Part shown: positions 44,859 through 45,354 of the stretch, in pieces
Layout of the letters: every line of letters begins with the position of its first letter
Position numbering within the stretch: position 1 is the first letter of the stretch
Assembly (NCBI GenBank): GCA_001871925.1
Contig: MNWZ01000086.1
Location: forward strand, 1 to 47,756
Length of the DNA: 47,756 bases
Direction: 5' to 3'
Origin: Zetaproteobacteria bacterium CG1_02_53_45
GTDB taxonomy: Bacteria; Pseudomonadota; Zetaproteobacteria; Mariprofundales; Mariprofundaceae
Notes under the pieces: model-generated
Told to the model about the DNA's origin: nothing
Databases searched by the model: none
The model's input: only the letters and a program-made list of their open reading frames with translations
Made by a program: the position numbers and the translations under genes

Positions 44859-45354
44859 GGCAGGATAGCCGTTTGGACGGCGAATAGCCGCCCGCAGGGT
44901 GAGGGGCAGGATGCCCCGAATCACAACTCATCAGGACAGATGAGTTGGACGAAGCTTTAGTTCGCCCGCAGGGTGAGGGGCAGGATGCCCCGAATCACAA
45001 CTCATCAGGACAGATGAGTTGGACGAAGCTTTAGTTCGCCCGCAGGGTGAGGGACAGGATGCCCCGAATCAGATACGCGGAGGAACGCAGAGGAAAAGCG
45101 TAATAGAGTAGATCGCTGGAAAGAAGACTGCTTTAGTGATTGTAACTGAAAGACAACAAGGCAAGATAGCCTGAATAAATGAGCAAGACCGGGCACCCAC
45201 AGGATGTGGGGCGACCGAGTGAAACGAGGTCGTAAGCGGAGGCGGACATGCGCCGCCGCAGCGACAAGAGGCGAAAGGCAGGAACCTGACAAAAAGGCAG
45301 GATTGCCGTTTGGACGGCCACCAGGGCCGCCCGAAGGGTGAAGGCGATGGATGG
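44859..45354 (+). ncRNA. Candidate CsrA-titrating (CsrB/Rsm-like) RNA or structured leader
   Basis: Many stem-loops with AGGA in the loop: GGGGC-AGGAT-GCCCC (44903, 44977), GGGAC-AGGAT-GCCCC (45051), AACTCATC-AGGACA-GATGAGTT (44925, 44999), CCCAC-AGGAT-GTGGG (45196), GGC-AGGATA-GCC (44859), GGC-AGGATT-GCC (about 45296). Confidence 0.45.
44889..45071. repeat. 74-bp tandem repeat, two full copies plus partial third
   Basis: CGCCCGCAGGGTGAGGGGCAGGATGCCCCGAATCACAACTCATCAGGACAGATGAGTTGGACGAAGCTTTAGTT at 44889 and 44963; partial with one change at 45037. Confidence 0.95.

Follow-up and report, generated by a model that had tools for sequence, protein, structure and literature searches.

A dispersed family of REP-like repeats with putative CsrA-binding hairpin loops in Zetaproteobacteria and other Pseudomonadota

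The spacer between nadE and glnB in Zetaproteobacteria bacterium CG1_02_53_45 (GCA_001871925.1; contig MNWZ01000086.1, of which the whole stretch analysed, 47,756 nt, is here called the window) contains an array of hairpins with GGA loops that is probably one cluster of a dispersed, REP-like palindromic family, the transcripts of which would present CsrA-binding hairpin loops. The initial annotation of this DNA opposed a Csr-type RNA element to a dispersed repeat; the data favour both at once. More tentatively, we propose that this mobile or formerly mobile repeat family, widespread in Pseudomonadota, could constitute a genome-wide distributed CsrA sponge and regulon.

The spacer is bounded upstream by nadE (NAD+ synthase; + strand, 43227..44831, a 534-aa ORF in the same orientation as the repeat units), whose product has 86% identity to NadE of Mariprofundus micogutta and so assigns the window to the iron-oxidising genus Mariprofundus, and downstream by glnB (PII protein; + strand, 45383..45721, a 112-aa ORF), for which by-eye alignment with M. 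micogutta (AAATTGAAAAAGATC) better sets the start at the TTG at 45383. The 551 nt between the nadE stop (44831) and this TTG hold no convincing ORF in the ORF list, as the initial annotation had stated. It had also described at least eight GGA stem-loops with varied stems; its coordinates and loop sequences were right, and nine such hairpins, differing in stem sequence, can be read from the sequence. Their loops are AGGATA (44858-44871), AGGAT (44903-44917, 44977-44991, and 45051-45065, the last with one A-C mismatch in its stem), AGGACA (44924-44947 and 44998-45021), and AGGATT (45296-45307); the other two are CCCAC-AGGAT-GTGGG (45196-45210), inside a decayed unit, and GATGGATG (45343-45357). 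Folding, one of the checks proposed with that annotation, showed positions 44832-45384 (553 nt) to be far more stable than shuffled sequences (-217 vs. -168 kcal/mol; z -7.3), with none of 100 shuffles equally stable.

The spacer is built of direct repeats, an organisation absent from the initial annotation: three copies are apparent, two of them identical 74-mers. The R1 covariance model resolves four clear units of 71-74 nt (E 5e-17 to 5e-22), the first three in tandem, and one decayed unit, all on the + strand. Unit 1 (44853..44923; 77.8 bits, E 9.5e-20) consists, in order, of hairpin A with loop AGGATA, the linker TTTGGACG, hairpin B, CCCGCAGGG, hairpin C with loop AGGAT, and GAATCA. Unit 2, an exact direct repeat of 74 nt (44924..44997; 85.8 bits, E 5.4e-22), is followed by its near-identical tandem copy, unit 3 (44998..45071; 82.2 bits, E 5.6e-21); the decayed unit, also recognised by its fold (45154..45222; 16 bits, E 0.017), and unit 4 (45290..45363; 68.2 bits, E 4.6e-17) lie further downstream. 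A CGCGGAGGAACGCAGAGGAAAA-like stretch (window 45072-45110; L002; L005) recurs beside several clusters, and is possibly another dispersed repeat tied to array ends. Elsewhere in the window, a small ORF (41776-42084, 102 aa) resembles a ParE-type toxin and lies upstream of the queA-like gene at 42196-43230.

Units of the family are 71-78 nt long, with covarying stems and constant AGGA or ANGGA loops. The first half of the consensus comprises hairpin A (variable stem, loop AGGA plus 0-2 bases), TTGGACG, and a variable hairpin B; the second half comprises CCCGNAGGG, TGAG, hairpin C (variable stem, loop A-N-GGA-U), and CGAATCA. The units have the sequences CAGGA(U/C)A and CANGGAUG, and their two loops lie about 45-50 nt apart. 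BLAST of the spacer against its own genome, another of the proposed checks, returned 18 places, so the sequence is dispersed rather than unique. The motif CCGNAGGGTGAN{1,12}GGAN{2,12}GAATCA occurs exactly at 16 places in the genome and its reversed-pattern control at none, indicating that the motif is not a product of chance, and the covariance model finds 67 matches (E up to 0.01). Across Zetaproteobacteria, matches occur in 56 of 78 genomes, representing 13 of 18 genera, at up to about 60 copies per genome and often in tandem; beyond the class, 38 Pseudomonadota genomes in a sample of the phylum carry them, and in some of these the dispersed copies are nearly identical. The sole match in the plasmid search was a single copy in one Aeromonas caviae record, and searches of phages and E. 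coli returned no family matches.

Most clusters (158/170) are intergenic. Units lie sense to the upstream gene in 70 of 105 clusters (70:35; p = 0.0008), show no bias relative to the downstream gene (55:50), and are antisense to both neighbours in 23 of the 114 clusters with both neighbours called, with the genes in this orientation test called by a codon-usage script rather than a trained gene finder. Orientation fits, in part, transcription of the units; the clusters antisense to both neighbours count against the CsrA reading, as do 10 copies of an own-genome subfamily in which the hairpin C loop is ACGAU and lacks GGA. Second-subfamily units (CAATCCGGCAGGAAAGCCGGATTGGACG..., with ACGAT in the loop of hairpin C) lie on contigs C51, C75, C82, C92, C130, C155, and C157 (L148-L157, L020), paired in inverted orientation with a third type (CAAGATTGCAGGATAGCAATCTTGCACG...CATGA) at a distance of about 95 nt.

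Covariation in the stems is strong: 92% of cells are paired, against 74% when shuffled, with 56 double changes against 17, and slid controls gave no comparable covariation. However, stem pairs of copies from csrA+ genomes include about as few G-U pairs as A-C mismatches (66 vs. 62), so that no selection on pairing is visible at the RNA level. What maintains the stems seems instead to be a process at the DNA level that does not depend on CsrA, perhaps single-strand mobility or the correction of palindromes. Copies in csrA+ genomes are near-perfect palindromes whose stem sequence changes without an excess of G-U, which suggests stem turnover at the DNA level. Many unit stems also exceed the length typical of SELEX winners, which is four pairs or fewer (PMC7652899), a point against the CsrA reading.

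The loops behave differently from the varying stems. The genome itself has three csrA genes, as the initial annotation had asked to be checked, and in csrA+ genomes the loop GGA is kept in 185 of 215 distinct copies for hairpin A and 186 of 215 for hairpin C (~86%). When copies in csrA+ genomes were ranked by decay at the remaining unpaired consensus columns, even the quarter with most decay, in which those columns were down to 0.68, had loop GGA at frequencies of 0.94 (A) and 0.87 (C); the loops are thus kept from decaying. The initial annotation had entertained a dispersed repeat with incidental GGA loops, and had regarded dozens of copies with unconserved loops as contrary to a Csr role. 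The dispersal and the dozens of copies are real (67 matches), but the GGA is conserved and the loops do not appear incidental.

Genomes without csrA provide the sharper comparison. Of 78 Zetaproteobacteria assemblies, 14 yielded no csrA, and most of these 14 have no or few copies of the repeat. Two of them, G073 and G074, carry numerous copies whose loops are intact, but these assemblies are only 74% and 69% complete and may thus have missed the gene. A third, G068, is a relative with about 59 copies in a 95% complete assembly, and about three quarters of that assembly, read back, contained no csrA. Additionally, nine other genomes sampled from the class have csrA directly downstream of lysC, an arrangement that the own genome shows twice; in G068, lysC lies in the middle of a 56-kb contig with no csrA downstream, being followed by a terminator and then a facing phosphate permease gene.

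In G068 and a further csrA-lacking genome, G008, GGA was found in loop A in 7 of 38 copies and in loop C in 14 of 38 (G008 contributing two sampled copies, one of which kept GGA); a larger sample of G068 gave 9/53 (17%) and 20/53 (38%), respectively. The stems, linker, and tail of the G068 copies are highly uniform, while the eroded loops read, for example, AGTCCT, AGCCCT, CGCAG, AGACA, or AAC. Column entropy in G068 rises by more than 0.5 bit only at loop positions of hairpins A and C, and nearly all stem and linker columns fall relative to csrA+ genomes. The linker GGA, which lies outside the hairpin loops, is kept in 34 of 36 copies, so there has been no general loss of GGA. With stems matched, csrA+ and csrA-lacking genomes still differed (22/23 vs. 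3/19, p = 9e-8; 18/18 vs. 5/12, p = 4e-4), a contrast that rests mainly on G068 and in which copies within a genome are related, so that these p-values overstate independence. No other single line of evidence is as strong as this erosion, observed in one genome; by sequence comparison, the loop positions are those released when csrA is absent. Decay confined to the loops in a repeat-rich, csrA-less relative suggests that the repeats are probably dispersed CsrA-binding sites across many transcripts.

An alternative, which we consider unlikely, is that the family is a selfish or neutral REP-like DNA repeat to which CsrA is irrelevant, its single-stranded DNA hairpin loops being read by an unknown or RAYT-type enzyme. 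The GGA loops would then serve DNA recognition, and their loss from the master copies of G068 would have been a matter of chance. The dispersed, tandem, and inverted copies, the near-identical dispersed copies in G085 and G129, the lack of G-U excess in stems, and the GACG that follows hairpin A, complementary to the CGTC tag of CGTC-REPs (PMC3733652), are all consistent with such a repeat. Genes for Y1 (RAYT-like) tyrosine transposases are also common in Zetaproteobacteria, with matches to NCBIfam REP_Tyr_transpos below cut-off. However, G046 (one contig, 11 copies) has no Y1 match and none was found in G075, yet both keep loop GGA, whereas G068 has six Y1 genes and has lost it; as neither counts nor loops track transposase presence, RAYT was rejected as the cause. 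The variety of loops among 36 G068 copies, 25 for hairpin A and 24 for hairpin C, also argues against a single founder, and a DNA-only repeat explains neither the retention of GGA in old csrA+ copies nor the co-occurrence with csrA. Separately, a gene for a 337-aa Y1 (RAYT-like) transposase (L194:1402-2415; G000 C96) was observed about 0.45 kb from a family member.

That co-occurrence extends beyond the class. In a sample of 332 non-Zetaproteobacteria genomes, the repeat was found in 37 of 156 genomes with csrA and 1 of 176 without (p = 1e-12); conversely, csrA is present in 37 of 38 repeat-bearing genomes and 119 of 294 others. Counted by family, the association has p of about 1e-5, a value that incorporates an estimate of ~44 csrA-lacking families among those listed. 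The association is confounded by descent, csrA being scarce in some large groups, and is therefore taken as supporting evidence only. Together with the three csrA genes, the selective retention of loop GGA, and its loss in csrA-less G068, it nonetheless lends support to the CsrA connection suggested by the initial annotation. Repeats adjoin one csrA gene of the own genome (L020); as a conserved feature, csrA-linked repeats were rejected, being absent from the 31 other csrA loci scanned. Just past one csrA terminator, on the opposite strand and adjoining two inverted family members, is a hairpin (L020:1360-1395; G000 contig C92) with the sequence AACTACAAGGATGTAGTT, an almost letter-perfect CsrA SELEX consensus.

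Under the CsrA-binding reading, we infer that units would be transcribed within mRNAs, often in 3' untranslated regions, and that the transcribed units would bind CsrA dimers, titrating CsrA and placing the carrier transcripts under its control. The loop sequences fit CsrA sites, as represented by the CsrB repeats, CAGGA(U/A/C)G, and by the SELEX consensus RUACARGGAUGU, which occurs in hairpin loops; a CsrA dimer can span a pair of sites separated by 10-63 nt (review, PMC7652899). In the reading that accounts for all the observations, the stems would be upheld by the repeat's own DNA-level biology and the loops by CsrA. At the locus studied here, units 1-4 would be carried by nadE-glnB read-through RNA, and a CsrA dimer on the unit-4 hairpin could also contact the glnB Shine-Dalgarno sequence by bridging, as in E. 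coli glgC.

This last step could also be taken as the main function of the array, in a glnB-specific, CsrA-responsive leader whose unit-4 bridging represses PII synthesis and links carbon and nitrogen control; we give this little credence. The geometry is suitable: the GGA of unit-4 hairpin C (45349-45351), the nearest loop GGA to glnB, lies 16 and 20 nt from the two GGA motifs read in the Shine-Dalgarno sequence GGAAGGAG (+ strand, 45368..45375), distances inside the workable range of 10-63 nt (PMC7652899). However, this hairpin is weak, and unit 4 folded alone is predicted to adopt an alternative long hairpin. The M. micogutta nadE-glnB spacer is short and without the array, which was thus either inserted or expanded in one lineage or else lost from M. 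micogutta, and is not a conserved glnB leader; moreover, the unbiased downstream orientation (55:50) indicates that the family in general does not serve as such leaders. It is highly improbable that a single-locus sRNA gene of the CsrB/RsmZ type, as raised in the initial annotation, lies here and acts as the main CsrA sponge: nine GGA hairpins in ~500 nt and a weak CsrB score (15.4 bits) recall such genes, but this score is far under the cut-off of 71 bits, M. micogutta lacks the array at the locus, the units recur at dozens of other loci, and no sigma-70 promoter-like or terminator-like site was seen inside the spacer, the only site, a weak one, lying within glnB.

CsrA control is usually pictured as a few sponge sRNAs set against many single mRNA sites, and the function of REP-like repeats is a long-standing question. 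A dispersed repeat with paired CsrA-type loops would mean that CsrA sites are spread by copying, and such loops would give REP-like repeats a testable role. If the distributed-sponge proposal is true, a transcript gains CsrA sites with every insertion, the level of free CsrA depends jointly on the number of repeat copies and on host expression, and the loops escape selection once csrA is lost. The csrA-less relative is a natural experiment that can be repeated on more genomes. Among open-licence papers we found no report of a dispersed CsrA-binding repeat, and an earlier description elsewhere is not excluded.

The family shares features with several known systems. Like the CsrB/CsrC/RsmX/Y/Z sRNAs (Rfam clan CL00106), it has many CAGGAU-type loops that could in principle hold several CsrA dimers, with multiple A(N)GGA hairpin loops as in CsrB/RsmZ (nine in the spacer) that, as expected of CsrA elements, appear conserved where CsrA is present. 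However, each of those is one regulated sRNA gene, with a discrete, CsrA-sequestering transcript under GacA/UvrY control, whereas here a 74-nt unit recurs at dozens of sites, most of them intergenic and many sense to the upstream gene, and no dedicated promoter was seen in the spacer; at the Rfam gathering threshold the spacer has no match. At glnB, a hairpin-loop GGA and a Shine-Dalgarno GGA at bridging distance resemble the E. coli glgC leader, although here the candidate hairpin would be supplied by repeat insertion. CGTC-tagged REPs (Di Nocera, De Gregorio and Rocco, 2013; PMC3733652) are likewise palindromes of ~9 bp beside an unpaired CGTC, intergenic, mostly downstream of genes, and without a dedicated transposase. 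The reverse complement of that tag, GACG, follows hairpin A in most copies here (GCACG or GAACG in other subfamilies), and loops are 4-6 nt, compared with 4-5 nt. In contrast to CGTC REPs, the stems mostly start C-G rather than A-T, there is no CCA tail, head-to-tail arrays are common rather than negligible, and the unit has a second hairpin, a fixed GAATCA end, GGA loops, and a link to csrA; the CGTC-REP paper makes no mention of CsrA. GTAG REPs and REPINs, mobilised by RAYT, are also dispersed palindromic repeats, and inverted pairs occur in one subfamily here, but the consensus has no GTAG and the copies in G046 and G075 occur without any Y1 match. A study of the Beggiatoaceae TAACTGA repeat considered, then rejected, CsrA for its own repeat (PMC4679880); TAACTGA occurs once in the nadE-glnB spacer, which we take as chance. 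Set beside these systems, the family is most likely a REP-like repeat with CsrA-type loops.
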